From: Sphingomonas mollis
Lineage (GTDB): Bacteria > Pseudomonadota > Alphaproteobacteria > Sphingomonadales > Sphingomonadaceae
Reading direction: 5' to 3'
Assembly (NCBI RefSeq): GCF_016427505.1
Contig: NZ_JAELXS010000004.1
Span: 62,001-126,000, forward strand
DNA: 64,000 nt
Position 1 is the first letter of the stretch; each line of letters begins with the position of its first letter. The notes beneath the pieces were generated by a model. That model was not told the DNA's origin and did no database searches. It saw only the letters and a program-made list of their open reading frames with translations. Below are positions 29,502 to 64,000 of the stretch, one piece after another. The position numbers and the translations under genes are program-made.

Positions 29502-29633
29502 CCCGCCGGCTTGATGATAGCGGGCCGTTGGTGTTGCTGAACTGGCCGGCAATCCGGTCCCCTCCCCGTACAAGTACCTATCCCTAAGCGCTGATCGAAG
29601 CGGGAGCGAGCGTGCAGTGGTAGGGCGATCCAA

Positions 29634-29712: not shown

Positions 29713-29760
29713 AGGAGAACGGCGCGGAACAACCGGCGTCGGCTGCAGGGGAGGATTATG

Positions 29761-32799: not shown

Positions 32800-32887
32800 T
32801 GGCGATGGACCTGCCGGTGGGGTGGCTTTTTCCGTCGCCCGGCGGCAGGTCTATTGCGATCGGGGTCCAGTGAAGACGGGAAACACG

Positions 32888-34447: not shown

Positions 34448-34448
34448 C

Positions 34449-36171: not shown

Positions 36172-36197
36172 GCGCCGGTTCCGTGCAGGGGAGTTCG

Positions 36198-46481: not shown

Positions 46482-46501
46482 GGGTTGAGGCCTTTTCGTG
46501 C

Positions 46502-49363
46502 TTAGAACCGGAGGCTGGCGCCGAGGTAGAATTGCCGCCCGAAGAATTGGAGCGTGCCCGTCTGCGCGGTCTGGCCGAAATAGGAACGGGTCGGCTCGTC
46601 GGTGAAGTTGTTCGCCTGCGCCAGCAACGTCAGGCCGCCGAGCGGGCCGTCGTTGGGGAATTCATAGCTCATCTGCGCATCGAACACGGTTTCGGCGGCG
46701 TTCGTCACGATCTGTTCGGACAGGCCGAACTGCGGCGCCACGAATTTCGAGCGATAGCGCATCGACACGCGGGTCGAGAAACCGCTCTTTTCGTAGAAGA
46801 TCGTCGGGTTCGACACGATCTTCGACAGGCCCGGCAGCGACAACGACAACGAGTTGCCGCTGATCGCGTTGGTGATGCTGACATCAGACTGGTTGTACGA
46901 GATGTTCAGCACCGCGCCGAGGCCATCGAGCGGCGATGGCAGGAAATCGAATGTCTTCGTCACCGCCGCTTCGAAGCCATAGACGTAACCGCCATCGCCG
47001 TTGATCGGCGCGAACAGGTTGCCGGTGGTGACGACGCTGTTGAAGCCGGTGCCGGCCAGCGGCGGCGTGGTGATGCCGTTGGCGGCGAAATCGTAATTCG
47101 GCACGACGCCGCCGATCACGAAGCTCTCGATATCCTTGTAGAAGGCACCGAGGACCAGCGAGCCGCTGTTGCCGAAATAATGCTCGTACGTCGCGTCGAA
47201 CTGGTTGGCGCGGAACGGCTTCAGCTCCGGGTTGCCGCCCGATCCGTCGAGCCGCGCGACGCCGCCGCCGATCCCGACAAGGTTGGTGGTGATCGAATTG
47301 CGGAAATCGAAGAAGCGTGGCCGCGAGATCTGGCGAGAAAGCGACAGGCGGGCCTGATCCTGCGGGGTCAGCGACAGGATGAAGTTGGCCTGCGGCAACC
47401 AGTCGGTGAACTTCGTCCCGCGACCATTGTCGTACCGGCCGCCATTGCCATCGGCGATCGTCGAGGACGACAATTGATCGGTATGGACGACGCGCAAGCC
47501 GATATTGCCCTTGAACGGCAGCGATCCGGCGATCGTATCGAAGTTCAGCTGGGCATAGCCGGCATAGGTCTTCTCATCGATCGTGAAGCTCTGATCGCGG
47601 GTGAAGGCCTGCGACTGATCGACCACGCGGTCGGTGCCGAGCTGTGAATCGAAGATGCTGCCGATATCGGCGACGAGGAAGTCGGGGAAGGACGAGAACT
47701 TGCCCTTGAAACCGGCGATGGTCGAATTGGCATTCGTCAGCGTGACCGGGGTGGCGAAACTGAAACTGTTGAAGCTGGTGATCGTCCGTTCCGCGCGGCG
47801 GTTGCCGTACCGGCCGCCGATATCGAACGACTTCAGGAACGGCCCGTCGATCTTGAGCAGGGCGCTGCCCGAGAACGCGTACAGGCGATCGGTATCGCGC
47901 TGCGGCACGATGTAGAAGCCCTCTAAATTGTTCGCCGCAGGATTGGTGTAGTCAGCGCTGGTCGCGAACTGGCCGACGTTCAGGCCGTCGAGCTTGTAGC
48001 TGAGCGTGGTCGGGGTCGTCGTTGTATTGCCGTTGTCGTCCAGACCCGAATTGTTGAAGAAGCTGGACGCGCGCGAATAGGAGCCGTCGGCGGTCAGGGT
48101 CAGCCGGCCGATGTCCTTCTGGACATTGCCGCCGACGGTGTAGAGACGGTCGAGCCGGTTCTCGTCCTGCTGGATCGTGCGGGTGCGGATGCCCGACGTG
48201 GTGCCGCCGACGATGGTGTTGCCGACCACCGTGGCATTGGTCAGGTTGCTGCTGGACGATTGCAGATTCTCGACGCGGATGCCGCGACGGTACACGTCCG
48301 ACTTGAAGCGCGAGTAATAGCCGTCGATCAGGACACGGAAGGTATCGGTCGGCTCGTGCTGGATGCTGCCGAGCACGCCGTCGCGGGTTTCGTTGCCGCC
48401 GGACTGCACAGCCTCGAACCCGTATCCGATCGCATCGGGGCGACCGTTGTTGTCGAGATCGCGGGCCGCCGGGCTGCCGTTCTGGCCGGTGGCGGTGTAG
48501 TCGTAACCGACGAAGCGGGTCGCGACGTTCGCCTGGCGCAAGCGGGCATAGCCGAGCGCGAGGCCCAGCGTATCGTCGAGCAGCTTGGTCTGGATCGAGG
48601 CGCTGGCGCGGTAGCCGAAGCGGTCGGCGTCGGGGTTCTGTCCGGCGCGATCGTTATAGACGCCGCGCACGTTGACGCTGACCAGCGTCGAACCGGGGAT
48701 GGTGAGCGGGCGGGCGGTCGTCAGTTCGACCTTGCCGGCGACACCGCCCTCGATCTGCGACGCCTTCGGGCTTTTGTAGACGGCGGCCTGATTGACGAGT
48801 TCGGACGGATACTGGTCGAATTCGATGACGCGGTTGCCGGACGTGGCGACCTGTTCGCGGCCGTTGAGCGTCGCGGAGACGAGGTCTTGGCTGAGACCGC
48901 GGATGTTGATGGCGGATGCCTGACCACCGGTGCGCTGCGAGGTGACGCCGGGGAGACGGGCGAGCGATTCAGCGATCGACACGTCGGGCAGACGGCCGAT
49001 ATCCTCGGCCGAGACGATCTCCGCGACGACATCGAGATTGCGCTTTACCGCGATCGACGAGCGCAGGCTGGCGCGGAAGCCGGTGACGACGATATCGGTA
49101 TCCGCATCGTTCGCGCCGGGGGTCGATTCCACGACGGGCGGTGCAGCGGGATCGGCCTGGCCGGGCGTTGCCGGATCCGACTGGACAGGCATCGACACGC
49201 TAGGCGTCGCGGCGCTCTGCATCGTCTGCGGATCGTTGGAACTGGTCGCTTGTGCCTGGGCCGCGCCGGCCAGCAACAAGGCGGCGGCGAGGGCGGAGCC
49301 GCTGACCGAACGTTTCAACACGGCATGCGCGATATCGGCCGAACGCCGGGTGACCACGGTCAT
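46502..49363 (-). CDS. TonB-dependent receptor, probably for maltodextrins (MalA-like)
   Basis: A receptor of 953 residues with a signal peptide (AAALLLAGAAQAQA), a low-complexity linker rich in Pro, Ser and Asp, and the TonB-box-like TDIVVTGFRASLRSS. The plug follows (AEDIGRLPDVSIAESLARLPG, INIRGLSQDLVSATLNGRE), then the barrel, which ends GASLRF. It belongs to the same sub-family as the receptor at 29761, which includes Caulobacter MalA. The GH13 enzyme downstream and the maltose-type MFS permease divergent to it support starch or maltodextrin uptake. The start at 49363 has AGGGGAC eight bases upstream. Confidence 0.93.
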   Translation of the reverse strand: MTVVTRRSADIAHAVLKRSVSGSALAAALLLAGAAQAQATSSNDPQTMQSAATPSVSMPVQSDPATPGQADPAAPPVVESTPGANDADTDIVVTGFRASLRSSIAVKRNLDVVAEIVSAEDIGRLPDVSIAESLARLPGVTSQRTGGQASAINIRGLSQDLVSATLNGREQVATSGNRVIEFDQYPSELVNQAAVYKSPKASQIEGGVAGKVELTTARPLTIPGSTLVSVNVRGVYNDRAGQNPDADRFGYRASASIQTKLLDDTLGLALGYARLRQANVATRFVGYDYTATGQNGSPAARDLDNNGRPDAIGYGFEAVQSGGNETRDGVLGSIQHEPTDTFRVLIDGYYSRFKSDVYRRGIRVENLQSSSSNLTNATVVGNTIVGGTTSGIRTRTIQQDENRLDRLYTVGGNVQKDIGRLTLTADGSYSRASSFFNNSGLDDNGNTTTTPTTLSYKLDGLNVGQFATSADYTNPAANNLEGFYIVPQRDTDRLYAFSGSALLKIDGPFLKSFDIGGRYGNRRAERTITSFNSFSFATPVTLTNANSTIAGFKGKFSSFPDFLVADIGSIFDSQLGTDRVVDQSQAFTRDQSFTIDEKTYAGYAQLNFDTIAGSLPFKGNIGLRVVHTDQLSSSTIADGNGGRYDNGRGTKFTDWLPQANFILSLTPQDQARLSLSRQISRPRFFDFRNSITTNLVGIGGGVARLDGSGGNPELKPFRANQFDATYEHYFGNSGSLVLGAFYKDIESFVIGGVVPNYDFAANGITTPPLAGTGFNSVVTTGNLFAPINGDGGYVYGFEAAVTKTFDFLPSPLDGLGAVLNISYNQSDVSITNAISGNSLSLSLPGLSKIVSNPTIFYEKSGFSTRVSMRYRSKFVAPQFGLSEQIVTNAAETVFDAQMSYEFPNDGPLGGLTLLAQANNFTDEPTRSYFGQTAQTGTLQFFGRQFYLGASLRF

Positions 49364-49708
49364 CTCACTTGTCCCCTAAAAGGTCCGGCTATCTTTCGTG
49401 CCGGTTGTCGTTGCTGGTAATTCATTGAAATCGGGCGGGGCGAAAGCCAATAAGCCGACATACGTATTCAACACTGCCACATCGGGGCTGTTGCTCATCC
49501 GCCACGATCCATGTCCGTGGGCGCGTTGACGGCGGGCGGTCTCCTGGTCGATGCTGGCACCCGACAAACCGTCGCCAAGGCGGTACTGACCGAGAGGATC
49601 GAACCGCCGTGACCGCGCCGTGTCAGCCGACATCCATCGAACCTGCGTCTAGCGCCGCTTCCCCGCGCCCCGTCACGGACAGGACCGGCGACCGTGCATA
49701 GGGCCGCG
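49364..49708. promoter_or_regulatory. Divergent regulatory region between the TonB receptor and the MFS permease
   Basis: These 345 bases hold no convincing gene; an 85-residue minus-strand open frame has no recognisable features. It must carry promoters for both operons. ATACGTAT at 49460-49467 is a perfect 8-bp palindrome with a central CG, as LacI-type operators have, and lies where a repressor could cover the receptor promoter. No maltose regulator gene lies in the window next to it. Confidence 0.35.
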
Positions 49709-51193
49709 ATGGAGAAGCCGCATCAGGGCTTTTGGGGCCTGTGGAACATCTCGTTCGGGTTCTTCGGCATCCAGATCGGCTTCGCGTTGCAGAATGCGAA
49801 TGTCAGCCGGATCTTCCAGTCGCTCGGCACCTCGGTCGATGACTTGGCCTTTCTGTGGATCGCGGCCCCGCTGACCGGATTGCTCGTCCAGCCGGTGATT
49901 GGTCATTACAGCGACCGGACCTGGGGGCGGCTGGGGCGGCGTCGGCCGTATTTTCTGGCGGGCGCGATGCTGGCGACGATCGGGCTGCTGGCGATGCCGA
50001 ATGCGCCCGTGCTGTGGGTGGCGGCGGCGCTGTTGTGGATGCTCGACGGATCGCTGAACATCTCGATGGAGCCGTTCCGCGCGTTCGTCGGCGATATGCT
50101 GGGCAGCCGCCAGCGGACGGCGGGCTATGCGTTCCAGACCGGCTTCATCGGCGCGGGCGCAGTGGTCGGCAGTCTGGCGCCGATCATCCTGACCGATGTG
50201 TTCCGGGTCGCCAATGTCGCGCCTGCCGGCGGCATTCCGCCATCGGTGCAATATGGTTTCTACATCGGGGCGCTGGCGCTGTTCTTCGCGGTGTTGTGGA
50301 CGGTGCTGACGACGGAGGAATATTCGCCGGCGCAGATGGCGGCGTTCGAGGACGCGGATGCCGTGGAACACAGCCATGGCGGCTCGGCTATCTCAACCAC
50401 CGGCGCGCGACTGGCACCGCTCTGGATCGCGATGGGGGCGATCGTGATCGCCGCGGTGGCGCAGTTCGGGCTGGACAAGCCGATGTACCTGCTGGGCGGC
50501 GGGCTGGTGGCGTTCGGCGTCGCTTTGCTCATCAGCGCCGCGCTGGTGCGATCGGGGAACGGCGACAATGTGCTCAGCCAGATCGTCGGCGACCTGACGA
50601 CGATGCCGACGACGATGAAGCAACTGGCGCTCGTCCAGTTCTTCTCATGGTCGGCGCTGTTCATCATGTGGATCTACACGACGCCGATCGTCACGCAGCA
50701 CGTGTTCGGGACGACCGACACCGCCAGCGCCGCGTATAATCAGGGCGCGAACTGGGTCGGTGTGCTGTTCGCGGTGTATAACGGCGTGGCGACGATCTGG
50801 GCGTTCGTGCTGCCGTCGCTGGCGGCGAAGATCGGGCGGCGGGACACGCATATCATCGGTCTGGTGTGCGGGGCGGCGGGCTTCGCGTCGTTCCTGCTGG
50901 TGCGCGACCAGTATGTGCTGATCGGATCGATGGTGCTGATCGGCATCGCCTGGGCATCGATCCTGACGATGCCCTATGCGATTCTGTCCGGCGCGCTGCC
51001 ACAGGACAAGTTGGGCGTGTATATGGGGTTGTTCAACATCTTCATCGTGTTGCCGCAACTGATCGTGTCGTCGGTGATGGGCGAGGTGGTCCGCACCTTC
51101 TTTCCGGGTCAGGCGATCTGGGCGATGCTGATCGCGGCGGCAGTGATGCTGATGGCCGCGGCGGCGATGTTGCGCGTGCCCAAGCGGGCGTGA
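49709..51193 (+). CDS. MFS permease, maltose/maltodextrin type
   Basis: A permease of 494 residues with 12 predicted helices of the type found in the MalY/SLC45-like sugar-proton group. The start GFWGLWNISFGFFGIQIGFA and the motif GHYSDRTWGRLGRRRPYFL in the first cytoplasmic loop are typical, as is LDGSLNISMEPFRAFVGD. Members of this group in Caulobacter and xanthomonads carry maltose or sucrose. Its partner genes (TonB receptor and GH13) make maltose or maltodextrin the likely substrate. The start ATG at 49709 is preferred to the in-frame GTG at 49694. Confidence 0.88.
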   Translation: MEKPHQGFWGLWNISFGFFGIQIGFALQNANVSRIFQSLGTSVDDLAFLWIAAPLTGLLVQPVIGHYSDRTWGRLGRRRPYFLAGAMLATIGLLAMPNAPVLWVAAALLWMLDGSLNISMEPFRAFVGDMLGSRQRTAGYAFQTGFIGAGAVVGSLAPIILTDVFRVANVAPAGGIPPSVQYGFYIGALALFFAVLWTVLTTEEYSPAQMAAFEDADAVEHSHGGSAISTTGARLAPLWIAMGAIVIAAVAQFGLDKPMYLLGGGLVAFGVALLISAALVRSGNGDNVLSQIVGDLTTMPTTMKQLALVQFFSWSALFIMWIYTTPIVTQHVFGTTDTASAAYNQGANWVGVLFAVYNGVATIWAFVLPSLAAKIGRRDTHIIGLVCGAAGFASFLLVRDQYVLIGSMVLIGIAWASILTMPYAILSGALPQDKLGVYMGLFNIFIVLPQLIVSSVMGEVVRTFFPGQAIWAMLIAAAVMLMAAAAMLRVPKRA

Positions 51194-51279: not shown

Positions 51280-52638
51280 ATGACCAGTATCAGCCGGCGT
51301 GGAACCCTGTTGGCAGGCGTCGCCCTGCTGGCCGCCTGTACGACCGGCACAGGATCGGGAGGCACGGGATCGGGCGGAACGCCACCAAGGTCCACGTTCG
51401 TGACCGTCGACGGCCTGCATTTTCGCCGCAACGGGGCGCCTTATCGTTATGTCGGAGCGAACATCTGGTACGGCGCGTGGCTGGGGGCGCAGACGGCCTA
51501 TGGCGACCGGGCGCGGTTGACGCGGGAGCTGGACCGGTTGCAGGCGCTGGGCGTTCGCAACCTCCGGCTGCTGGGGTCGGCGGAGCTGTCGCCACTGAAG
51601 AACTCGATCACGCCCGGTTTTCGCGGCAGGAGCGCGACCTATAACGACGACCTGCTGAAGGGCCTCGACTGGACGCTGGCCGAGATGGCCAAGCGCGACA
51701 TGACGGCGGTGATCTATCTGACCAATTTCTGGGAATGGTCGGGCGGCATGATGACGTATCTGTCGTGGGTGAACGGCGGCCGGTTCATCAACATGAACGA
51801 TCCCACGCATCCCTGGCCGGAATTTCCGGACTGGAACGCCGCCTTCTACGCCAACGCACAGGCACAGGCGATGTACCGCGATTACATCCGGGCGGTGGTG
51901 AAGCGGACGAACAGCGTCACCGGCGTCGCCTATGCCACCGACCCGACGATCATGGCCTGGCAGCTGGCCAACGAACCGCGCCCCGGCGGGTCGAATGCGG
52001 TGGCGGCGGCGAACCTGCCGAACTTCTATCGCTGGGTCGACGAGACCGCGCGCTACATCAAGACGCTCGATCCGCATCACCTTGTCTCCACCGGGTCGGA
52101 GGGGCTGAAGGGATCGATCGAGCGCGAGGATATCGTACTGGCCGCGCATCGGCCGGCGTCGATCGATTACCTGACGACGCATATCTGGCCGAACAACTGG
52201 AGCTGGATGGACCCCGGCAATCTGGCCGGTACCTATGATGCGGGCGCGGCGAAGGTGGCGGGGTATATCGACGCGCATATCCGGATGGCGAACACGCTGG
52301 GCAAGCCGCTGGTGATCGAGGAGTTCGGCTATCCGCGCGACGGGCGCGATGCGTTCGACCCGTCGATCACCACCGCCTACAAGGACCGGTTCTATCGCCA
52401 GATCTATGCGGCGATCGAGGCGAATGCGAAAGCCGGCGGGCCGCTGGCGGGATCGAACTTCTGGGCGTGGAACGGCGAGGCGCGGACGCCGCATGCCGAC
52501 CACCGGTTCCAGCGCGGCGACCTTGGCTATATGGGCGATCCGCCGCATGAGCCGCAGGGATGGTACGGCGTGTTCGACAGCGACGCTGGCACGCAAGGAG
52601 TGATCCGCAGGCATGCGGCGGTGATGAAGGGTCTTTGA
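51280..52638 (+). CDS. GH5 beta-mannanase-like lipoprotein
   Basis: A protein of 452 residues. The N-terminus has a twin-arginine-like start (ISRRGTLLAG) and a lipobox (LLAAC, Cys20), then a Gly/Ser linker, so it is likely a surface or periplasmic lipoprotein. The TIM barrel carries WQLANEPRP with acid/base Glu232 and LVIEEFGY with nucleophile Glu348. This pattern fits the mannan-active GH5 subfamily (endo-1,4-beta-mannanase). Its substrate would be glucomannan or galactomannan. It follows the MFS gene by 86 bases, with GAGGGAAT as ribosome-binding site. Confidence 0.87.
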   Translation: MTSISRRGTLLAGVALLAACTTGTGSGGTGSGGTPPRSTFVTVDGLHFRRNGAPYRYVGANIWYGAWLGAQTAYGDRARLTRELDRLQALGVRNLRLLGSAELSPLKNSITPGFRGRSATYNDDLLKGLDWTLAEMAKRDMTAVIYLTNFWEWSGGMMTYLSWVNGGRFINMNDPTHPWPEFPDWNAAFYANAQAQAMYRDYIRAVVKRTNSVTGVAYATDPTIMAWQLANEPRPGGSNAVAAANLPNFYRWVDETARYIKTLDPHHLVSTGSEGLKGSIEREDIVLAAHRPASIDYLTTHIWPNNWSWMDPGNLAGTYDAGAAKVAGYIDAHIRMANTLGKPLVIEEFGYPRDGRDAFDPSITTAYKDRFYRQIYAAIEANAKAGGPLAGSNFWAWNGEARTPHADHRFQRGDLGYMGDPPHEPQGWYGVFDSDAGTQGVIRRHAAVMKGL

Positions 52639-52936: not shown

Positions 52937-54415
52937 ATGCCTCGTCATGGTATTTATCCGCGCGACATCATTCCGCCGGTGTCGGATTATTATGATTCCG
53001 GACGGTTCGGTCGGATGTTCGGCAAGCTGGTTCCGTTCGCTTCGGACACGCCGCGGATCAGAAAGGCGCTGATGGATATCGGTGCGGTCAATGGGCCGAT
53101 GGATGCGCGGGAAAATCTGGCGGCCGATCCCAAGGACCTGATCGTCGACCTGAACCTGTCGGCGAACAACAACAACAATCCGAGACTATCGGCGGGGATG
53201 ACCTTTTTCGGCCAGTTCCTCGACCACGACATGACCTTCGATCCGACATCCAGTCTGGAGCGTCAGGTCGATCCCGAACAGATCGCCAATTTCCGCACGC
53301 CGTCGCTGGCTCTCGACAACGTCTATGGTGCCGGACCGGGGGGTAGCCCGCATCTGTACGACCGCAGCGATGGCGACAAGTTCCTGCTGGAGGAGACCGG
53401 CACGCCGGGCAAGCACGACGTGCCGCGCAACAGCCAGCATGTGGCCCTGATCGGCGATCCGCGCGACGACGAGAACCTCATCATCTCGCAGTTGCAGGTC
53501 GCTTTCCTGAAGTTCCACAACGCGGTGGTAGACTATGTCCGCACGGAAATCGGCCTGACCGGCGGCGAGGTCTTTCCCGAAGCGCAACGGATCGTGCGCT
53601 GGCATTATCAGTGGATCGTGGTGCACGAATTCCTGCCCAAGACATGCGGCGACGCGGTGGTGACGGATATCCTGACCAAGGGCCGCAAATTCTATAAATG
53701 GCGGAACGAGCCCTATATCCCGGTCGAGTTCGCGGTCGCCGCCTACCGCTTCGGGCATAGTCAGGTACGCCCCTCCTATCGCGCGAACTTCACCGGCAAT
53801 CCGGGTGGCACGCCGTTCTTCGCGATGATCTTCCGCGAGAATGCGACGCCGGCCGGCGATCCCGACGACCTGTCCGGATCGGTGCGGGCGCCGCGGCGCT
53901 TCATCGACTGGCCGACCTTCTTCGACTTCAACGACGGCCAGGTGAAGCCGAACAAGAAGATCGACACGACGCTGTCGACCGCGCTGTTCCGCCTGCCGGG
54001 GACGGTGGTGCCGCATCCGAACGCCACGTCGAACCCGGCGTCGCTGGCGCAACGCAACCTGCTTCGCCACCTGACTTTCTCGCTGCCATCCGGGCAGCGC
54101 GTGGCCAAGGCGATGAAGATAACGCCGCTGGGCAAGGACAAGCTGGCGAAGCTGGCGCCCTGGGGGCTGGATGATAACACGCCACTCTGGTTCTACATCC
54201 TGCAGGAGGCGGAAACCGAGGCGAGTGGCGAACGGCTCGGCTCCGTCGGCGGGCGCATCGTGGCGGAGGTCATGCTGGGCCTGATCGAGGGGGATCGGAC
54301 GTCGTATCTGTCGCAGGACCCGGAATGGGAGCCGTTCCTGCCGACGATCGATCCGGCTCATCGACACGAGAATTTCTCGATCGTCGACCTTCTGCGCTTT
54401 GCGGGTGTCGCCTGA
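52937..54415 (+). CDS. Animal-type haem peroxidase
   Basis: A protein of 492 residues in the peroxidase-cyclooxygenase superfamily (animal haem peroxidases, bacterial peroxicin-like proteins). The distal histidine is His97 in FGQFLDHDMTFDPTS, and the proximal one His274 in VAAYRFGHSQVRPSY. LQVAFLKFHNAVVDYV and the long helical core are also typical. Such enzymes use peroxide to oxidise halides or phenolics. There is no signal peptide, so it is either cytosolic or exported by another route. AGGAGAAGG precedes the ATG. The hairpin at 52657 and the AT-rich region suggest it is transcribed separately from GH5, and it may be co-transcribed with the oxidoreductase 45 bases downstream. Confidence 0.9.
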   Translation: MPRHGIYPRDIIPPVSDYYDSGRFGRMFGKLVPFASDTPRIRKALMDIGAVNGPMDARENLAADPKDLIVDLNLSANNNNNPRLSAGMTFFGQFLDHDMTFDPTSSLERQVDPEQIANFRTPSLALDNVYGAGPGGSPHLYDRSDGDKFLLEETGTPGKHDVPRNSQHVALIGDPRDDENLIISQLQVAFLKFHNAVVDYVRTEIGLTGGEVFPEAQRIVRWHYQWIVVHEFLPKTCGDAVVTDILTKGRKFYKWRNEPYIPVEFAVAAYRFGHSQVRPSYRANFTGNPGGTPFFAMIFRENATPAGDPDDLSGSVRAPRRFIDWPTFFDFNDGQVKPNKKIDTTLSTALFRLPGTVVPHPNATSNPASLAQRNLLRHLTFSLPSGQRVAKAMKITPLGKDKLAKLAPWGLDDNTPLWFYILQEAETEASGERLGSVGGRIVAEVMLGLIEGDRTSYLSQDPEWEPFLPTIDPAHRHENFSIVDLLRFAGVA

Positions 54416-54460
54416 GCCGGTACTTCCGCGTTGTCGACGACGGGCACCGGGAGTGGCGCG

Positions 54461-55558
54461 ATGGAGATGGGACGACGCGATGTTTTGATCGGCGCGGCGA
54501 CGCTGGCGGTGACGCCGCCCGCCGCGCTGGCCGCCGGACCTGGCCGGCCGATGGGCTATGCGATCGTCGGTCTGGGCGGGTACGGCCTGGGCGTCATCAT
54601 CCCGCAATTCGCGAATTGCGTGCACAGCCGGCTGGCGGCGGTCGTCAGCGGCGATGCGGCCAAGGCGAAGCGTGTCGCGGCCAAACATGGACTGCCGGAT
54701 CGATCGATCTATTCCTATGCGAATTTCGATCGCATCCGTGACAACCCAGACGTCGACATCGTCTATGTCTGCCTGCCCAATGCGATGCACGCCGAATACA
54801 CGATCCGCGCGGCGCGGGCGGGCAAGCATGTGTTGTGCGAGAAGCCGATGGCCGTATCCGTCGCCGAATGCGAGGCGATGATCGCCGCCTGCAAGCGCGC
54901 CGACCGCCGGTTGATGATCGGGTATCGATGCCATTTCGAACCGTTCAACCGCGCGGCGATGCGGCTGGCGCGGCGCGGCGCGGCCGGCAGGGTCCGCTAT
55001 GTCCGGTCCGAACACGGCTTCGTTCAGGGCGATCCCAGGGCGTGGCGCCTGAAGAAGGCGATGGCCGGCGGTGGATCGCTGATGGATATGGGCGTCTATA
55101 GCCTGCAGGCCGCACGGTACATGACCGGCGAGGAACCGGTCGCCGTCACCGCCCGCGAATCCACCGATCGCCGCGATCCGCGCTTTGCGGAGGTCGAGGA
55201 CATGATCGAATGGACGCTGGAATTCCCCTCCGGCGCGCTGGCCGGTTGCCAGTCGATGTACAGCGCCGGCCAGAACCGCATCCTGTTGATGGGCGATCGC
55301 GGGCGGATCGAACTGGAACCGGCGACGCGCTATACCGGCAACCGGCTGTGGACCGGCGAGGATGGCCGGGAGCGCGAGATCACGCCCCCGCCCGGCCCCG
55401 GCAAGACGCAGTTCGCCGGGCAGCTGGACCATCTCGCCCGCTGCGCCATGACGGGCAGCGAGCCGATCGTCTCCGGCGAGGAGGGGTTGCGCGACCTGCG
55501 GATCATCGAGGCGATCTATCGCTCCGCACGGGAAGGCCGGACGATCCGGCTGGTGTGA
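54461..55558 (+). CDS. Exported Gfo/Idh/MocA oxidoreductase, glucose-fructose-oxidoreductase-like
   Basis: A 365-residue NAD(P)-dependent sugar oxidoreductase. The N-terminus has a Tat-type signal (GRRDVLIGAATLAV, cut after LAAG). The Rossmann start is YAIVGLGGYGLGVIIP, and the catalytic lysine is Lys128 in CEKPMAV. The region MIGYRCHFEPFNRAAMRL and GGGSLMDMGVYSLQAARY closely resembles Zymomonas glucose-fructose oxidoreductase, a periplasmic enzyme with tightly bound NADP. It may oxidise or reduce an aldose released by the nearby hydrolases; the actual sugar is unknown. The start at 54461 has GGGAG seven bases upstream. Confidence 0.85.
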   Translation: MEMGRRDVLIGAATLAVTPPAALAAGPGRPMGYAIVGLGGYGLGVIIPQFANCVHSRLAAVVSGDAAKAKRVAAKHGLPDRSIYSYANFDRIRDNPDVDIVYVCLPNAMHAEYTIRAARAGKHVLCEKPMAVSVAECEAMIAACKRADRRLMIGYRCHFEPFNRAAMRLARRGAAGRVRYVRSEHGFVQGDPRAWRLKKAMAGGGSLMDMGVYSLQAARYMTGEEPVAVTARESTDRRDPRFAEVEDMIEWTLEFPSGALAGCQSMYSAGQNRILLMGDRGRIELEPATRYTGNRLWTGEDGREREITPPPGPGKTQFAGQLDHLARCAMTGSEPIVSGEEGLRDLRIIEAIYRSAREGRTIRLV

Positions 55559-55678
55559 AGACCCCGTCCGTGCCGCCGGATCGGATGGCGATCGGCGATT
55601 GTTGGACGCGGGTTATTGCGACATAGCCGGTGCCATGTCGGTATCGTCTCACAGCGTCCCCCTTCCCCCGGTGCAGGC

Positions 55679-57316
55679 ATGATCGGTTATCGGCCCAGTC
55701 GTCGCGCGGTGATCGGCGGCGGTGTAGCACTGGCGGCGGCGCGGGGGGCGCTGGCGCAAAGTGCGGCGGGGCTGGCCACCGGGCCGGTGCGGCCCACATG
55801 GGACTCGCTGGTCCATCACTATCGCTATCCGGACTGGTTCCGCGACGCGAAGTTCGGAATCTGGTCGCACTGGGGTCCGCAGGCGGTGCCGGAGCAGGGC
55901 GACTGGTACGGCCGCTTCATGTATATGCAGGGGCATCCGATGTATCGCCATCATCTGGCGACATATGGCCACCCCGCCGATACCGGCATGATCGACATCC
56001 AGAACCGCTGGACGGCGGCGGCATGGGACCCGGAGGCGTTGATGAAGCGCTTCACGGCGGCAGGGGCGAAGTATTTCGTGTCGCTGGCGTGCCATCACGA
56101 CAATCTGGACTGCTACGACAGCAGCCATCATGCCTGGAACACGCTGCGCGTCGGGCCGAAGCGCGACGTGGTGGGCATTTGGGAAAAGACGGCACGGGCG
56201 GCGGGACTGCGCTTCGGCGTGTCCAACCATGCGGCGCATGCCTGGCACTGGTTCCAGCCGGCCTATGCCTATGACCCAGAAGGACCGCGCAAGGGCGAGC
56301 GGTACGATGCGTATCGGCTGACCCGAGCGGACGGGCGCGGCAAATGGTGGGACGGGCTGGACCCACAGGAGCTTTACACCGGGCGGCATATGGTCGCTCC
56401 GGACGGCATCGACAGCATCGCGGCGATGGATGCGTGGCATGACCAGCATGACGGGCAATGGATGGAACATGGCCCGCCCGCCGATCCGCGTTACGCCACC
56501 AACTGGCTGTTGCGGCAGGCGGACCTGATGGCGAAGTACAAGCCGGATTTCTGCTATTTCGACGATTACGAACTGCCGTTCGGCGCGGTCGGGTTGGAGG
56601 CGGCGGCGGATTACTACAACCGGTCGATCGAGTGGCACGGCAAGATCGACGTGGTGCTGACCGCCAAGCAATTGAAACCCTATGCCCGGTTCGGGCTGGT
56701 GCAGGATGTCGAGCGCGGTTTCTCCGACCATCTGTGGGACGAGCCGTGGCAGACGGATACGTGCATCGGCGACTGGTTCTACAACCGGTCGCGCTTTACC
56801 GATCGCAGTTACAAGAGTGCGGCCGATGTGCTGCAGCGGCTGGCGGATGTGGTGTCGAAGAACGGCAATCTGCTGCTGTCGGTGCCGCAGCGTGGCGACG
56901 GGACGATCGATGCCGAGGAGGAGAAGATCCTCGACGGGCTGGCGGCATGGATGACGGTGAACGGCGAGGCGATCTTCGGGTCGCGGCCCTGGCGGGTTTA
57001 CGGCGAAGGGCCGACGGTGCTGGCGACGGGGATGCAGAACGAGGGCGGGTTCAAGGGCTTCACCGACCGCGATGTGCGCTTCACGGTCAACAAGGGGGCA
57101 TTGTACGCGCTGTTTCTGGCGCCGCCGGCCGGAGAGGCGGCGATCGCGGCATTGGGTTGGGATCGGTGGCGCGGTGGCGCGATCGAGCGGGTGACGTTGC
57201 TCGGCGGCGGCACGGTGCCGTATCGGCAGGATGGCGCGGCGCTGCGTCTGGATTTGCCGCGCGGGCTGGGGACGGTGCCGGTCGTGAAGATCGAGGGTCG
57301 GGGTATTTCGGGATAG
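55679..57316 (+). CDS. Exported GH29 alpha-L-fucosidase
   Basis: A protein of 545 residues with a Tat-like signal (PSRRAVIGGGVALAAARGALAQ) and a GH29 catalytic domain. WFRDAKFGIWSHWGPQAVPE at the start of the barrel and YFVSLACHHDNLDCYDS with the substrate histidines are characteristic. The nucleophile is Asp295 in CYFDDYELPFG. A C-terminal beta-sandwich follows. It removes alpha-L-fucose; fucosylated xyloglucan is the probable source because the operon facing it (GH74-GH35-GH31) is xyloglucan-type. The start at 55679 gives the signal peptide; upstream in-frame codons lack conserved sequence. The 121-base gap after the oxidoreductase holds no feature. Confidence 0.9.
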   Translation: MIGYRPSRRAVIGGGVALAAARGALAQSAAGLATGPVRPTWDSLVHHYRYPDWFRDAKFGIWSHWGPQAVPEQGDWYGRFMYMQGHPMYRHHLATYGHPADTGMIDIQNRWTAAAWDPEALMKRFTAAGAKYFVSLACHHDNLDCYDSSHHAWNTLRVGPKRDVVGIWEKTARAAGLRFGVSNHAAHAWHWFQPAYAYDPEGPRKGERYDAYRLTRADGRGKWWDGLDPQELYTGRHMVAPDGIDSIAAMDAWHDQHDGQWMEHGPPADPRYATNWLLRQADLMAKYKPDFCYFDDYELPFGAVGLEAAADYYNRSIEWHGKIDVVLTAKQLKPYARFGLVQDVERGFSDHLWDEPWQTDTCIGDWFYNRSRFTDRSYKSAADVLQRLADVVSKNGNLLLSVPQRGDGTIDAEEEKILDGLAAWMTVNGEAIFGSRPWRVYGEGPTVLATGMQNEGGFKGFTDRDVRFTVNKGALYALFLAPPAGEAAIAALGWDRWRGGAIERVTLLGGGTVPYRQDGAALRLDLPRGLGTVPVVKIEGRGISG

Positions 57317-57626: not shown

Positions 57627-60506
57627 CTAGCCGGGGCGGCGGAGATTTACCTCTGCGCCCGTGTACGTCACCTCCGCATCGCCCGCGCCGTCGTCCGTCA
57701 CCGGACGGCCGGCGGAGACCCAGCGGACGCGGATGGTGCGGGTGGCGGGCATCTTGTCGTAACCCTTGCCCTCCCGCGCGCCGAGCGTCAGCGTGCCGGT
57801 GGCGTCGTCGTAGCGCATCGGGATGCGGGCGAAGGCGTCGCGGCGATATTGCTCGCTGGTGCCGTCATCCTCGTACAGCGAGAAGCGGCCATCGGCGCCG
57901 GTATAGACCGCGACGGTCAGCGGCGCATCGGGATGCTGATCGGTATATTGCATCACCGGCCCCATCGGCACGATCGCGCCGGCGCGGACGAACAGCGGCA
58001 TCCGTTCGAACGGCGCGGTCGCCGTCACCGACTGGCCGCCGCGATAGGCGTTGCCGGTGCCGAAGTCGTACCACATGCCGGTACCGGGCAGATACACCTG
58101 ACGGGTACGCGCCTTGTACTCGGTGACGGGGGCGACGAGGAACGCGTCGCCGAACAGATACTCGTCGGCGATGTCGCGGGCGCGGACGTCGTTCGGCCAA
58201 TCCATCGCGAGGCCGCGCATGATGCTGCCGTCCTTGTGCCACGTATCGGCGGCGACGGTGTAGATGTAGGGCATCAGGCGATAGCGAAGCTGGTCGTACC
58301 AGACCATCGATGCGCGCATCGGCGATCCTTCGGGCGAGATTTCGTAAATCTCGCGGTACGGCGCCTCGCCATGGCTGCGGAACAGCGGGCTGAACGCACC
58401 GAACTGGAACCAGCGCAGGTTCAGCTCACGCCATTCGTCCAGATCGGCGGGCTTCGGCGTCTTGCTGGCGTAGCGATCCTCCAGCGCGAAGCCGCCGATA
58501 TCGTGCGTCCAGTTGGGGATGCCCGACATCGATGCGTTGACGCCACCCGAAATCTGCGCACGCAGATCGTACCAGCGGCTGGCGACGTCGCCCGACCAGA
58601 TCGCCGCCCCGGTCCGCTGCAACCCGCCGAACCCGGAACGGGTCAGGATGAAAGGCCGCACGTCTGGCTTATAACCGCGCCATCCGTCGTAGAAGGCGGT
58701 CGCGTTCATCAACGGATAGCTGTTGAAATACTCCGCCGCCGGGCCGCGCGCGGTCGGCCCCATCGTCTCGATCCGTTCGGGGATCGACAGGTTGGAGTGC
58801 ATGTCCGGCTCGCTGGCATCCGCCCACCAGGCATCGATGCCCAGCGTCGCGAGCCGATCCTTTACCTGCCGCCAGAAGATCGACCGACCCTCCGCCGAAT
58901 AAGGATCGTAGAAGGTGTTCTTGTACCCCGGCCCGACCCAGTCGACATTGCCCATCTTCAGATTGCCCTGATAGGCCAGTCCCTTGGCGGCGAATTCCTT
59001 GTAATTGTCGGTGGTCGGATAGAATTTCGGCCAGACCGAGATCATGAAGTGCGCGTTCAGGTCATGCACCTTGCTGACCAGCGCCTTGGGGTCTGAAAAA
59101 CGGGCGGGGTCGAAGCGGTGGCTGCCCCATTCGTCGTCGCGCCAGTAGCGCCAGTCGAGGACGATGTTGTCGAGCGGGATGCCGAGGCCGCGATACTTCT
59201 CGACCACGTCGATCATCTCTTTCGAGGTGTCGTAACGCTGGCGCGACTGCCAGAAGCCATAGGCCCATTTGGGCATCATGACCGCCTTGCCCGTCAGTTG
59301 GCGGTAACCGGCGATGACGTCGTCCATGTCGCGGCCCGGCACGTACCAGTAATTGACGGCGCGGGCGACGTCGCTGGTGAACCACACCGAATGACGATCG
59401 GCGGCGGGTAGCGGATCGTTGTGCAGCAGCGCGATGTAGCCGGCGTTCGGCTCCCATTCGATGCGGATCGTCGCGGGCTTGCCCTTCGTCATCGGCGCGG
59501 TGAAATTGGCGTACCAGGGGTTCCAGTTCTGCCGCCAGCGATTGAGCACCTCGCGCCCGTCCACGAACACCTTGAAATAGCTGGAGCCGTAGAGCTGGAA
59601 TTTCTGCTCACCGGTGACGTCGGGCGTCACCGTGCCGGTCCAGATGACCGTCTGTTTCTGCACCGCGTTGCCGGCGGTGTTCTGGCCGCCGGTCGCCGCC
59701 GTCGTCTTCGCCTTGGCCGCTTCCGGCCAGTTCACCTGGTCGCGGATATGCTGGTAGTTGATCGTCGCTTCCTGACGCGTCACCACCGGTTTGCCGTCGA
59801 GGAAATATTGCGCGGTCCAGCCGGGCTTGCCGCCCGAGGTGACGCGCATCGCATCGGCCCCGACCAGCGCATAAGGCTTCGGATTGCCGAAGCGGGTGAT
59901 GCCGTCATTATCCCACAGGATGCCGTAATTCTTCGTCGAGACGACGAAGGGCACGGCGATGTCCATATTGTGCTGGGCGAGTTCGACGTCCTCGCCATTA
60001 TAGTTCATCTGCGAATTCTGGTGCTGGCCGAGACCGTACAGCCCCTCGTCCGTGCCGCGATTGAACTGCTGCGTGGCGGTGACATACTGGCGGCCGTCGA
60101 TCAGCGTCGGGCGGAACGCGGGCGTGCCGGCCTCGTCCAGCACGACGCGGCCGCTGGCGTCGAGGAAGCGGACTTTGCCGGTGGCGAGATCGACATCGGC
60201 GGTGGTGCGCGCGGCCTTCACCTGGACATGGCCGGCGGTTTCGACGACCGTGAAGCGATCCGCCTTTGGCGGTTGCGGCACCATCAGGCTGGCCTGCTTC
60301 GTGAAACCGACCGAGGTCGCCGGCGCGGCGACGACGTGGATGATGCCGTCGCCATGGACGGTCACCTCGACCCGCGCAGCCGGGCCGCCGGCGGGCGTGA
60401 CCGCGATGCCGCCGTCGATCTTCGTGAAGCCGCCCTTGCGATCCGCGGCATGGGCGGTGGCGATAGCGCTACCCGTCAACAGCGCGGCGATCATCAGTTT
60501 CTTCAT
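57627..60506 (-). CDS. GH31 alpha-xylosidase with PA14 insert (xyloglucan type)
   Basis: A protein of 959 residues with a signal peptide (MKKLMIAALLTGSAIATAHA). It has an N-terminal beta-sandwich interrupted by a PA14 domain (about residues 225-365), a TIM barrel, and C-terminal beta domains. WWADASEPDMHSN holds the catalytic nucleophile Asp563 and the segment typical of alpha-xylosidases. The same build, including the PA14 insert, is known from Cellvibrio japonicus Xyl31A, which takes xylose off the non-reducing end of xyloglucan oligosaccharides. It lies 62 bases after the GH35 gene in the GH74-GH35-GH31 operon. The start could also be ATG at 60512, two codons upstream. Confidence 0.92.
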   Translation of the reverse strand: MKKLMIAALLTGSAIATAHAADRKGGFTKIDGGIAVTPAGGPAARVEVTVHGDGIIHVVAAPATSVGFTKQASLMVPQPPKADRFTVVETAGHVQVKAARTTADVDLATGKVRFLDASGRVVLDEAGTPAFRPTLIDGRQYVTATQQFNRGTDEGLYGLGQHQNSQMNYNGEDVELAQHNMDIAVPFVVSTKNYGILWDNDGITRFGNPKPYALVGADAMRVTSGGKPGWTAQYFLDGKPVVTRQEATINYQHIRDQVNWPEAAKAKTTAATGGQNTAGNAVQKQTVIWTGTVTPDVTGEQKFQLYGSSYFKVFVDGREVLNRWRQNWNPWYANFTAPMTKGKPATIRIEWEPNAGYIALLHNDPLPAADRHSVWFTSDVARAVNYWYVPGRDMDDVIAGYRQLTGKAVMMPKWAYGFWQSRQRYDTSKEMIDVVEKYRGLGIPLDNIVLDWRYWRDDEWGSHRFDPARFSDPKALVSKVHDLNAHFMISVWPKFYPTTDNYKEFAAKGLAYQGNLKMGNVDWVGPGYKNTFYDPYSAEGRSIFWRQVKDRLATLGIDAWWADASEPDMHSNLSIPERIETMGPTARGPAAEYFNSYPLMNATAFYDGWRGYKPDVRPFILTRSGFGGLQRTGAAIWSGDVASRWYDLRAQISGGVNASMSGIPNWTHDIGGFALEDRYASKTPKPADLDEWRELNLRWFQFGAFSPLFRSHGEAPYREIYEISPEGSPMRASMVWYDQLRYRLMPYIYTVAADTWHKDGSIMRGLAMDWPNDVRARDIADEYLFGDAFLVAPVTEYKARTRQVYLPGTGMWYDFGTGNAYRGGQSVTATAPFERMPLFVRAGAIVPMGPVMQYTDQHPDAPLTVAVYTGADGRFSLYEDDGTSEQYRRDAFARIPMRYDDATGTLTLGAREGKGYDKMPATRTIRVRWVSAGRPVTDDGAGDAEVTYTGAEVNLRRPG

Positions 60507-60568
60507 GTGCATCCGTCCCCAATCCTGTTCGCGCCGATCGATCATGCGACCGGCGCCCTTCGTTCGTT

Positions 60569-62191
60569 TCAGCGGTAACGACCCATCGTGACCCTCAGCA
60601 CCTGCGGCCGGTCGATCAGGTTGATGCCGTAATCGGTCTGGTCGCCGTTCCACACGCGCTGCGTGACCCAGCGGCCATCGGCGAAGCCACCCTCCTCGAC
60701 GCTGACGACCATGCCGTTTGCTGCGCCGCCCTTTGCCGTCCCGAATTCTAGGCGAACGTGGTCGCCGACGACCAGAAACTCGTCGGCCGACATCTGCGCG
60801 ACGGCGACGCCGCCGACCGGCTGGTCGGCCCATGGCGGTGGCGAGGATTTTATCCACGTCCAGTCCTTTTGCCCGAACTGCCACGCACCCCAGCTGGCGG
60901 TGATCGTCCAGCCGCCCATCGTGGTCGATTGCGCGGTGCCGTCATCGGGCTTGGCGACCCCCCAGGTCGGCCGCTCGAACGCGATCCGCGCCCAGTCGCG
61001 CATGATCGAGGAGAGTGCCTTGTAGGGAAGCGCGAAGACGTCGAGCGTCGCGTCGTCCAGCGTCGCGGCGCCGAGCGGATAGTTGAAGTATCCGGTCGCA
61101 TCCATGCCGAACGGCGAGAAGCCGATGCCGCCATGGCCGAGCGTGGGGTAGAGGAAGCGCGCGAATTCCTTCGCGTTGCCGATCTCCGGCACCATCAGCG
61201 CATTGTCGGGCCGGGCGTATTTTTCGAGGTACAGCGCGACGTTGCCGCTGGCGCGATCGTAGATGTCGGGCGCGGCGAAATCGATCGCGGGGGCCGCCGC
61301 CTTCCAGATATCGAGCACGTCCTGCTGCGGGCCGCCGCTCGCCACCCCGGTCGGATCGGGGACGTTGGAGGGGCCGGCGAGCGAGGCGTTGACGTACATC
61401 GGCAGCGGCTTCACCGCCTTGCCCGCCGCCGCGATCTCGTTGACGAACGCGGCGGTGTACCAGGTGTTGAACGCGCGATCGGCCTGTGCGCCGAAGGCTT
61501 GCGTCCATGTGCCGCGCTTGCCGACGCGCCGGGCGAGCGCGTCGGGGATGTTCTGTGCGAACAGGCGGTTGGCGGCGACGCCGTAATCGCGCGGCGAGCG
61601 ATAGCTGCCGACCTCGTTTTCGGGCTGCACCATGATGACGGTGTTCTGCGGATCGTGATCGCGCAGATACGTCATCACCTGCACGAACGCGCGCTTGTCC
61701 GCGTCCAGCGTGGCGCGGGCGTGGGGCGAGTGGACATAGTGATCCTCGCCCGTCTTCGTCTTCATGCGCGGGAAGCGGCGATTGTCGAGCTTGGCCCAGG
61801 CGGGCATATAGCCGGGCGACGTGTTCTTCCACGTGCCGAACCAGAGCAGGACGATGCGCTTGTCATGGGTGCGCGCCTGATCGAGCAGGGTCTGGAGGAA
61901 CGAGAAGTCGAACCTGCCCTCGACCGGTTCCACCTGCTGCCATGCGACCGGGATCTCGACCGTGTTGGCGTGGATGCGATCGAGCATCGGCCAGACGGCG
62001 GGCAGTGATGTGGCATAGTTGCTGGAATTATTGACCTGCCCGCCCAGCACCAGGAACGGCGCGCCATCGACGATCAGCGCGTGGCGGCCGTCCTTCGTTT
62101 CGATGTGCGGCACCGGTGATGCCTGTTGCGCGACCGCCGGCATCGCCAGACTTGCGAGGCTGACGGCCCAAAGCCCGATTATCTTCTTCAT
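60569..62191 (-). CDS. GH35 beta-galactosidase with DUF5597 domain (xyloglucan type)
   Basis: A protein of 540 residues with a signal peptide (ending AMPAVAQ). The N-terminal GH35 TIM barrel has IMVQPENEVGS with acid/base Glu193 and LMVPEIGNAKEF with nucleophile Glu336. The C-terminal ~160 residues are the DUF5597 domain found in Cellvibrio Bgl35A, a beta-galactosidase acting on galactosylated xyloglucan oligosaccharides. This match, and its place between GH74 and GH31, make xyloglucan side-chain removal its likely role. The start at 62191 overlaps the GH74 stop (ATGA); an open frame continues upstream but belongs to the antisense of nothing conserved. Confidence 0.92.
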   Translation of the reverse strand: MKKIIGLWAVSLASLAMPAVAQQASPVPHIETKDGRHALIVDGAPFLVLGGQVNNSSNYATSLPAVWPMLDRIHANTVEIPVAWQQVEPVEGRFDFSFLQTLLDQARTHDKRIVLLWFGTWKNTSPGYMPAWAKLDNRRFPRMKTKTGEDHYVHSPHARATLDADKRAFVQVMTYLRDHDPQNTVIMVQPENEVGSYRSPRDYGVAANRLFAQNIPDALARRVGKRGTWTQAFGAQADRAFNTWYTAAFVNEIAAAGKAVKPLPMYVNASLAGPSNVPDPTGVASGGPQQDVLDIWKAAAPAIDFAAPDIYDRASGNVALYLEKYARPDNALMVPEIGNAKEFARFLYPTLGHGGIGFSPFGMDATGYFNYPLGAATLDDATLDVFALPYKALSSIMRDWARIAFERPTWGVAKPDDGTAQSTTMGGWTITASWGAWQFGQKDWTWIKSSPPPWADQPVGGVAVAQMSADEFLVVGDHVRLEFGTAKGGAANGMVVSVEEGGFADGRWVTQRVWNGDQTDYGINLIDRPQVLRVTMGRYR

Positions 62192-64000
62192 TGAACCGCG
62201 TCTCCATAGACGATGCCGCGCCCGTCCGTTCCGATATATACCCGGCCATAACGGCGCGGATCGCCGATGATGACGCGAAATCGCAGACCCCATTGATGGC
62301 GGTCGTCGTTGATCCGTTGCCACGCCGCGCCGCCGTCGATCGAGCGCCAGACGGCGGTGATGCCATCCCGGCGCCCGATCGCATAGAGCGCCGGCCATGG
62401 GCTGTCCGGTGCGCTGTGGCCGAGACCGTAGAAGTCGATCGCCAGTTCGCCCGTCGTCCGGGTCCAGTGGTCGCCGGCGTCGGTCGATCGATACAGGTCC
62501 GGCCCGACCTTCAGCCACAAGGCGCCGGCGCGGCCGGGGGTCGCGAGCAGCGGGTTCGGCGTCTCGCGCCCTCGGGTACGGGTGCCGTACAGGTCGGCGG
62601 GCAATCCCTGCGCCGGTATGGGCGCGAAGGTCGCGCCGCCGTCAACGCTGCGCAGCAACCGGTTCTGGGCGATGTCGAGGGCGTAGAAGCGGGTGGCGTC
62701 TTCCTTGTCCGCCGCCACGCGCACCTGTGCCGGCAAGCCCTGCACCGCGATCCAGTGGCGGCCGCGATCGCGGGTCAGCATCGGCCGGTCGAGTTCGACC
62801 AGAAAGGTGCCGCCATCGGCCGATACCGTGATCGCGGCGCTGCCGGTGCGTTCCGGCGGCATCGATCCGTCGGCGGGCGGGGGCGATGGCGGCGTGGTCA
62901 GCGGTCGCCAGTTGCTGCCGCCGTCGTCCGACCATGCCAGCGAGGCACCGGGCACGACCGGCGCATGGGTGTTGCCGCTGCGGACCATGACGGCGGGCGC
63001 GCGTCCCGCATAGTCGAGCGTATTGGTGTTGGTGAGGAAGGGACCGCGGTGGACGCGCGGGGGCGAGCGACCGAGGTCGTCGTGCCGGAACCCGCCGATA
63101 TCGCCGAAGCCGGAAATCAGCGGCGCGCCGCCGGTGGGGCTCATCAGCGTCAGGATCGCGGTCTGTTCGATGCCGGCGGTCCACGGCGTCCAGCGCATCG
63201 ACCCCGGCCGGTCGAACCCGTCCGTCGCATAGACGGTCGCGCCGGTGACATAGACGGCATGGCCCGCATCGAACGGATCGATCGCGAGGCCGGCGATCCA
63301 GTGGCCGAAATCCGCCTTGGCGTCGAAATCGAGAAAGGGGGTCGCGGCGACGTCGCGCACGCTGCGCCGCCATAGCTCGTCCCAATGCGCGCCGCCGTCG
63401 ATCGACCGCCAGACGGTATCGACCGGCTTGTACCGATCGACGGTCGAAACGGCGATCACGCGCGGGTTCTGCGCCGACATGGCCACGCCCATGTAGCCGC
63501 CGGGTCGGGCGTCGGTGGCGACTTCCGGCGTCACGTCGCTCCACACGCCGGTATCGGTGGCGAGCCGCCAGACGGCGCCGCGCGTGATGCCGTTCGGGCC
63601 GATCCCGTTCGCATAGGTGATCGTCAGGACATGGTCGTGGCCGATGACGGCCTTGGCCGGCAACAGATCGGCCGGCGGGCCGCCCGCCACCGACACCCAG
63701 TGCATCCCGCCATCGTCCGACCGGAACAGATGCGCCGGGCCGGGATCGGCGCTCGCCACGTACAAGCGGCCTGCCCGTGTAGGATCGAACAGGACGAACG
63801 ACAGGCCACCATGGGTGACACGAGGCTGCTGCGGTTGCCCGAGGCCCGGCAGCGGAAAGCCCGCGACCTTGCGCCACTGCACGCCGGCATCGTCGCTGCG
63901 CCACAGACCGTCGTGCCGCGATCCGAAGAACAATGTATCGTGACGGTGCGGATCGATCGCCAGCCGTTCGCCGAGGCCGCGTCCATCCTCGTTGCCGCCC
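62188..64000 (-). CDS. GH74 xyloglucanase (5' end outside the window)
   Basis: The last ~604 residues of a GH74 enzyme, two seven-bladed beta-propellers that together hold the xyloglucan chain. Propeller motifs recur (LWRSDDAGVQWRKVAG, VWRSIDGGAHW, LYRSTDAGDHWTR). GFGDIGGFRHDDL contains the conserved Asp of the family's second catalytic site. The frame is open to the edge: residues GLGERLAIDPHRHDTLFFGS precede the first in-window start-like codon, matching internal GH74 sequence. The N-terminal part, with the first catalytic Asp and the signal peptide, is missing. It should cut the xyloglucan backbone and heads the GH35-GH31 genes. Confidence 0.92.
   Translation of the reverse strand, partial: GGNEDGRGLGERLAIDPHRHDTLFFGSRHDGLWRSDDAGVQWRKVAGFPLPGLGQPQQPRVTHGGLSFVLFDPTRAGRLYVASADPGPAHLFRSDDGGMHWVSVAGGPPADLLPAKAVIGHDHVLTITYANGIGPNGITRGAVWRLATDTGVWSDVTPEVATDARPGGYMGVAMSAQNPRVIAVSTVDRYKPVDTVWRSIDGGAHWDELWRRSVRDVAATPFLDFDAKADFGHWIAGLAIDPFDAGHAVYVTGATVYATDGFDRPGSMRWTPWTAGIEQTAILTLMSPTGGAPLISGFGDIGGFRHDDLGRSPPRVHRGPFLTNTNTLDYAGRAPAVMVRSGNTHAPVVPGASLAWSDDGGSNWRPLTTPPSPPPADGSMPPERTGSAAITVSADGGTFLVELDRPMLTRDRGRHWIAVQGLPAQVRVAADKEDATRFYALDIAQNRLLRSVDGGATFAPIPAQGLPADLYGTRTRGRETPNPLLATPGRAGALWLKVGPDLYRSTDAGDHWTRTTGELAIDFYGLGHSAPDSPWPALYAIGRRDGITAVWRSIDGGAAWQRINDDRHQWGLRFRVIIGDPRRYGRVYIGTDGRGIVYGDAVQ

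Follow-up and report, generated by a model that had tools for sequence, protein, structure and literature searches.

A probable xyloglucan utilisation locus of sphingomonad type in Sphingomonas mollis, with GH29 in the place of GH95

In a 64,000-nucleotide stretch of the Sphingomonas mollis genome (contig NZ_JAELXS010000004.1, positions 62,001 to 126,000; hereafter the window), an operon encoding enzymes of glycoside hydrolase (GH) families 74, 35 and 31 is faced by a GH29 gene. The question raised by this arrangement is whether the GH29 enzyme serves as the fucosidase of a xyloglucan pathway or belongs to something else. Gene content, gene order, recurrent linkage and catalytic residues together point to a xyloglucan utilisation locus (XyGUL) of sphingomonad type as the likely reading, in which GH29 would fill the slot that GH95 holds in Cellvibrio and Xanthomonas. 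The source contig is C19 of a 3.94-Mb genome. All coordinates follow window numbering, and those above 64000 lie in the adjoining contig sequence.

The operon is located on the minus strand, with GH74, GH35 and GH31 linked in this order. The GH74 endo-xyloglucanase (62188..64404, 738 amino acids) extends 404 bases beyond the window edge, and its whole frame was obtained from the adjoining contig. It is followed by the GH35 beta-galactosidase with a DUF5597 domain (60569..62191, 540 amino acids; PF18120 8.4e-32, PF01301) and the GH31 alpha-xylosidase with PA14 and DUF5110 domains (57627..~60512, ~960 amino acids; PF01055 1.1e-93, PA14 3.6e-08). The GH29 alpha-L-fucosidase is encoded on the plus strand (frame 55616-57316, likely ATG 55679; PF01120 4.9e-79), convergent with GH31 across 310 bases. 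The Pfam and PDB matches thus confirm all four enzymes on the strands claimed by an earlier sequence-only reading, which described a GH74, GH35-DUF5597 and GH31-PA14 operon faced by GH29. Its description of the operon as coupled applies strictly to the GH74/GH35 pair only, where the GH74 stop and the GH35 start overlap in ATGA, because GH35 and GH31 are ~56 bases apart.

Judged by their strength, the matches of the four enzymes to their families are not due to chance. GH74 matches solved xyloglucanases at ~1e-135 in a PDB search and carries a Sec-type signal by inspection; both catalytic Asp residues align by eye with the PDB xyloglucanases. The PDB matches of GH35 are 3u7v (2.6e-187), 7kmn and 4d1i (Bgl35A), and its score against NF051902 is 464.7 bits, below the cut-off of 500. 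GH31 matches 7kmp (1023 bits), which we take to be XacXyl31, and 2xvg (Xyl31A, 1012 bits), with the diagnostic residues aligned. Mapped by eye, it keeps the PA14 domain, the nucleophile and acid/base Asp, and the Trp residues of PA14 and of the barrel. GH29 shows a Tat-like signal by inspection, and contains the PF01120 domain and the conserved nucleophile Asp; the acid/base position varies within this family. Its closest solved structures are 7snk and 7ljj (~2e-75). A GH29 structure prediction made from six sequences reached a mean predicted local distance difference test score of 47 and was not used. Catalytic residues are kept in the alignments of all four enzymes, as checked by eye; the residue numbers of GH31 were taken from section 10 of PMC8245568. 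The PA14-GH31 form had been called rare, but it is not rare for the xyloglucan task, because the same section describes it as conserved among the GH31 alpha-xylosidases specific for xyloglucan.

Among described systems, the locus shares GH31-PA14 and GH35-DUF5597 with the Cellvibrio japonicus XyGUL (PMC5816542, PMC4285296), and its enzymes are homologues of Xyl31A (2xvg) and Bgl35A (4d1i). The sequence-only reading had taken the whole enzyme set as characteristic of Cellvibrio. However, according to PMC5816542 and PMC8245568, the Cellvibrio locus comprises GH31, GH35, GH95 and a TonB receptor with no linked endo-xyloglucanase, whereas here GH74 is linked, and GH95 and an adjacent receptor are lacking. 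Linkage of GH74, GH31 and GH35 is the arrangement of the Xanthomonas XyGUL, which also holds GH95, CE20 and two TonB receptors (PMC8245568). The closest described system is therefore that of Xanthomonas, not of Cellvibrio. As in X. citri, GH74, GH31-PA14 and GH35 occur in one locus with an esterase while GH3 is outside it; moreover, xylose catabolism is encoded near the Xanthomonas locus and likewise near those of several sphingomonads, by other genes. The two systems differ in the fucosidase (GH95 in Xanthomonas, GH29 here), in the esterases (CE20 versus BD-FAE and GDSL types) and in the receptors (two versus none adjacent). The proposal of a xyloglucan operon whose fucosidase, GH29, differs from the Cellvibrio GH95 is in line with these observations.

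Activity on xyloglucan is not new to GH29, because GH29 of Saccharolobus solfataricus is reported to release fucose from xyloglucan or its oligosaccharides (PMC8037949), Fusarium FgFCO1 is reported to do the same (PMC7711723), and GH29 sequence clusters 2 and 3 include xyloglucan-active enzymes (PMC11189522). The first two are archaeal and fungal, and instead of a proteobacterial locus, the surroundings of the Saccharolobus gene are a region of 50 kb that also contains GH31 and GH1 genes. Among the literature matches listed (titles and abstract starts, subscription papers being outside the scope), none describes a sphingomonad xyloglucan locus, and a GH29 recurring in a proteobacterial xyloglucan locus where GH95 is expected was not found.

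The association of GH29 with the other enzymes was surveyed in 298 genomes of the family, the present one included, at thresholds of E<=1e-120 for GH29, <=1e-200 for GH31 and <=1e-100 for GH74. Matches are present in 23, 27 and 12 genomes, respectively. GH29 and GH31 occur together in 16 genomes against 2.1 expected, with p-values only indicative as the genomes are related. In addition, 11 of the 12 GH74 genomes have a GH29 homologue (10 of 12 without G155), and in the twelfth, G016, a short GH29-like fragment is found where a contig ends. The GH29 threshold is permissive enough to admit the second-best GH29 of the present genome (53%), and 4 of the 22 matches from other genomes (G103, G155, G213 and G227; 50-54%) are no closer than this paralogue. 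Co-occurrence alone proves little, because GH95, too, is found in 11 of the 27 GH31 genomes against 1.7 expected.

Position was compared in fetched stretches of up to 20 kb around GH29 in the 22 other genomes. A GH31 of the window type or a GH74 lies in 11 of these stretches (G045, G052, G091, G101, G103, G112, G123, G125, G163, G280 and G294), and among GH29 matches above 54%, 15 of 18 are linked to GH31, GH35 or GH74. The genes can be very close: match ends of GH29 and GH74 are ~40 bases apart in G112 and ~75 in G163, and those of GH29 and GH31 are ~80 bases apart in G052 and ~165 in G294. Maximum-likelihood analysis of 31 GH29 rows groups the GH29 of the window with ten others in a clade of 11 rows (96/99). 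Each of these ten has GH31, GH35 or GH74 in its stretch, two of them GH35 only; five of the ten were fetched because of GH74 and five come from genomes of the GH29 search. The genome's own paralogue (C19:300703), located near a GH28 gene, belongs to another clade together with two rows lacking such neighbours. Outside the family, 3 of 385 genomes of the class have a GH29 match (55-57%); GH35 and GH3 are found in the stretch of two, and GH31 or GH74 in none of the three.

Genes for the released sugars are also linked in relatives. In locus L023, GH74, GH35, GH31 and GH29 are joined to the L-fucose permease FucP (392 bits, cut-off 280) and an L-fucose dehydrogenase (381 bits, cut-off 300). FucP homologues (52-70%; the query itself came from L020) are found in L101, L109, L110, L112, L127, L131, L136 and L137, with weaker ones in L103 and L120; the stretches of L020, L103 and L109 lack GH29. 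In G225 and G262, GH29 lies near FucP, an aldo-keto reductase and a GarD-type dehydratase. In L018, the four hydrolases are joined to a D-xylose 1-dehydrogenase (438 bits, cut-off 400), and this locus also contains a sugar porter, a lactonase-family gene and an FAA-hydrolase-family gene. Homologues of these genes occur in the same order in L016, L021 and L024, L021 adding a dihydroxy-acid-dehydratase-family gene; from their families, they would be parts of an oxidative D-xylose route. GH3 adjoins the locus in several relatives. In the present genome, FucP (C17:280638), xylose dehydrogenase (C11:706292) and five GH3 matches are all encoded elsewhere. On the basis of the recurrent neighbourhood and the linked L-fucose genes, GH29 probably belongs to the xyloglucan pathway, and the doubt over its membership voiced at the outset is largely resolved in its favour. 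As a separate observation, GH29 in L016, L018 and L024 is directly followed, from ~18.6-18.8 kb, by another GH35 gene (49-50% to the window GH35).

Several observations weigh against this reading. Five of the 22 GH29 stretches contain GH35 without GH31 or GH74 (G029, G043, G057, G217 and G232), and six contain none of the three (G110, G155, G213, G225, G227 and G262). At the thresholds used, both GH29 and GH95 are lacking from nine of the 27 GH31 genomes, and both are present in nine. Neither a TonB receptor nor GH3 adjoins the operon here. The window GH29 is encoded on the strand opposite to the operon, and its block includes a haem peroxidase and an aldose oxidoreductase. Another enzyme could carry out defucosylation, because the genome holds three more GH29-family genes and one GH95. 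An exo-alpha-L-galactosidase is also among the nearest solved GH29 structures.

The closest relative found, Sphingomonas sp. Leaf339, provides a further point of this kind. Its GH74 shares 91% identity with the window GH74, against 59-70% for 16 other sphingomonad loci (best segments), and it keeps GH74-GH35-GH31 and the divergent esterase operon (described below) at 91-98%. The GH29-oxidoreductase-peroxidase block, in contrast, is missing at this place, with ~120 bases instead, the rest of the Leaf339 genome being unsearched. GH29 is thus accessory, and GH74-GH35-GH31 with the esterase operon form the core of the locus. Across the 17 named sphingomonad GH74 loci, which overlap in part with the 298-genome set so that the two surveys are not fully independent, GH29 is within the fetched flank in only five. 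The reading is weakest in the missing receptor, the specificity of GH29, the share of linkages that involve GH35 alone and the Leaf339 locus without GH29 at this place.

The absence of the block from this place in Leaf339 would fit an alternative in which the haem peroxidase, the aldose oxidoreductase and GH29 form a separate module directed at a different fucosylated glycan (plant N-glycan, arabinogalactan protein or pectin, for example). The place beside GH31 would then be incidental, and the GH95 on contig C17 would defucosylate xyloglucan. This GH95, the only match in the genome, lies beside a TonB receptor and a NAGLU (GH89) gene. The co-occurrence of GH95 with GH31 is consistent with this alternative, as is a Xanthomonas GH29 (NixE) cited from an N-glycan cluster (PMC10154630). 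However, GH29 is linked to GH31, GH35 or GH74 in 16 of the 22 other genomes, 11 of them with GH31 or GH74, in several arrangements and orientations, whereas GH95 is unlinked to GH31. No GH95 comes as close as 15 kb to GH31: the distance is 19-20 kb in two genomes, and in the others it is larger or the two genes are on different contigs. None of the 62 compared loci has a GH95 match. We therefore regard a separate module as unlikely.

GH95 was considered as the linked fucosidase and ruled out by its distance from GH31. Adjoining the GH95 match, together with an aldo-keto reductase and an IclR regulator, is an apparent L-fucose permease remnant with its middle missing (G000 C17:254039-254422; L006 ~15991-16500), ~26 kb from the full-length FucP.

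A second alternative concerns the specificity of GH29. The enzyme could function mainly as an exo-alpha-L-galactosidase, or hydrolyse both L-fucose and L-galactose linkages, its substrate being xyloglucan side chains with L-galactose. One of its best solved matches, 7ljj (2.2e-75), is an exo-alpha-L-galactosidase according to its depositors, and presumably represents BpGH29 of Bacteroides plebeius. BpGH29 belongs to one of the two sequence clusters that contain xyloglucan-active fucosidases (PMC11189522). Yet the window GH29 and 7ljj, an enzyme named for L-galactose, are only distantly alike, and the distance is too large to read specificity from. Relatives, moreover, have GH29 near the L-fucose permease and, in L023, also near the L-fucose dehydrogenase. 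An L-galactosidase role hence appears improbable. A third alternative is that the main substrate of the operon is another beta-glucan or mannan, as might be suggested by a GH5 exo-mannosidase-like gene at 51280 and by the GH13, TonB and major facilitator superfamily genes of 44661-51193, which look to alpha-glucan use. This is very improbable, as the best matches of GH74 and PA14-GH31 are xyloglucan enzymes and both proteins have the diagnostic residues.

Returning to the xyloglucan locus with GH29 as its fucosidase, the core extends to the right. A BD-FAE-type esterase (64597-65580, PF20434), a GDSL (SGNH) esterase (65577-66368, PF13472) and a GntR/FCD regulator (66436-67155) form an operon divergent from GH74 across 192 bases. 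The sequence-only reading proposed this side as the place to look for a TonB receptor and a regulator. The regulator is present, and GntR/FCD is likely that of the locus, but a TonB receptor is absent among the five coding-like frames above 550 amino acids scanned from 64405 to ~93600. In the window, the two divergent promoter regions contain no palindromes, and no shared 10-base words were found. The nearest TonB-dependent receptor lies ~8 kb to the left of the operon (46502..49363, minus strand; TIGR01782 534.6 bits), beside GH13, with which it probably forms a separate alpha-glucan unit. In an orthologue search for the GH74-linked receptor of Novosphingobium rosa, the best match in this genome is 43% (contig C9). 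Candidates for the receptor of the locus are the gene at 46502 and genes on contigs C9 and C3. N. rosa itself has two GH74 loci (L020 and L022) with different receptors.

A BD-FAE-type gene is near GH74 in 12 of the 17 named sphingomonad loci (in L022 at 42% over part only), and a GDSL gene in 4 of the 17. Dicot fucosylated xyloglucan may carry acetyl on galactose, which CE20 serves in Xanthomonas (PMC8245568); by analogy, the obvious candidates for galactose deacetylation here are the BD-FAE and GDSL esterases. A CE20-type esterase was sought with PF03629 (SASA) as a proxy, which gave two partial matches (39 and 30 bits), both above the Pfam cut-off and located on other contigs; this candidate was rejected.

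Taken together, family assignments and residues suggest the following pathway. Secreted GH74 would cut the glucan backbone into oligosaccharides, which may be imported by an outer-membrane receptor encoded away from the operon. In the periplasm, the esterases of the divergent operon may strip acetyl from galactose, the weakest step of the scheme. There, GH29 would remove alpha-1,2-L-fucose, GH35 galactose, and GH31 the xylose at the non-reducing end, while a GH3 beta-glucosidase encoded elsewhere in the genome would remove glucose. L-fucose and D-xylose would then enter pathways whose marker genes are located elsewhere here and beside the locus in several relatives.

Whether such loci constitute a distinct sphingomonad class, with GH29 for GH95, BD-FAE and GDSL esterases for CE20, and linked oxidative D-xylose and L-fucose catabolism for the xylose isomerase route, with cassettes exchanged between close relatives, is in our view an even call. 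Sphingomonads are common on leaves. The recurrent pairing would mark a specific GH29 group as bacterial xyloglucan fucosidases, aiding function assignment in a large family, and new acetylesterases for plant xyloglucan are predicted. Searches for GH95 alone could miss defucosylation in sphingomonads.

On the left-hand side, the strand of GH29 carries, going leftward, an oxidoreductase, a haem peroxidase, a GH5 gene and a sugar symporter, followed on the opposite strand by the TonB receptor and GH13. The GH13, TonB and major facilitator superfamily genes span 44661-51193. The Gfo/Idh/MocA oxidoreductase (54431..55558, plus strand) resembles aldose-aldose oxidoreductase (PDB 5a02, 1.3e-133), has a Tat-like start and scores 221 bits against the D-xylose dehydrogenase Gfo6 model, below the cut-off of 350. 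Homologues (44-56%) are present in the GH31 stretches L117, L122 and L124, and the enzyme is possibly accessory to the xyloglucan locus. It could act on the xylose freed by GH31, because the Caulobacter aldose-aldose oxidoreductase converts xylose to xylonate and xylitol (PMC4628093). The animal-type haem peroxidase (52937-54415, plus strand; PF03098) has no homologue in the 62 other loci compared. The GH5 exo-beta-mannosidase-like lipoprotein (51280..52638, plus strand) matches Man5A (PDB 1uuq, 3e-120), its Pfam match being weak, and is probably mannan-directed. In Leaf339, the TonB receptor gene (46502-49363) is cleanly missing between the symporter and GH13 (L008 ~20142-20151), and GH13 directly follows the upstream region of the missing receptor.

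Other neighbouring genes were noted in passing. To the right of the regulator, 67162-73290 (L002:12162-18290) encodes HlyD and an ATP-binding cassette (ABC) exporter pair beside a 973-amino-acid protein with a Calx-beta match, an arrangement kept in Leaf339. To the left, 40007-43588 encodes a 1193-amino-acid protein that combines a peptidase M1 domain with a weak ABC-2-like membrane match, adjoining an ABC ATPase. Farther left, 29617-38761 contains, on one strand, a TonB receptor, two tryptophan-halogenase-like genes, SapC, a cupin and LacI; halogenase-TonB pairs are also present in several xyloglucan loci of relatives.

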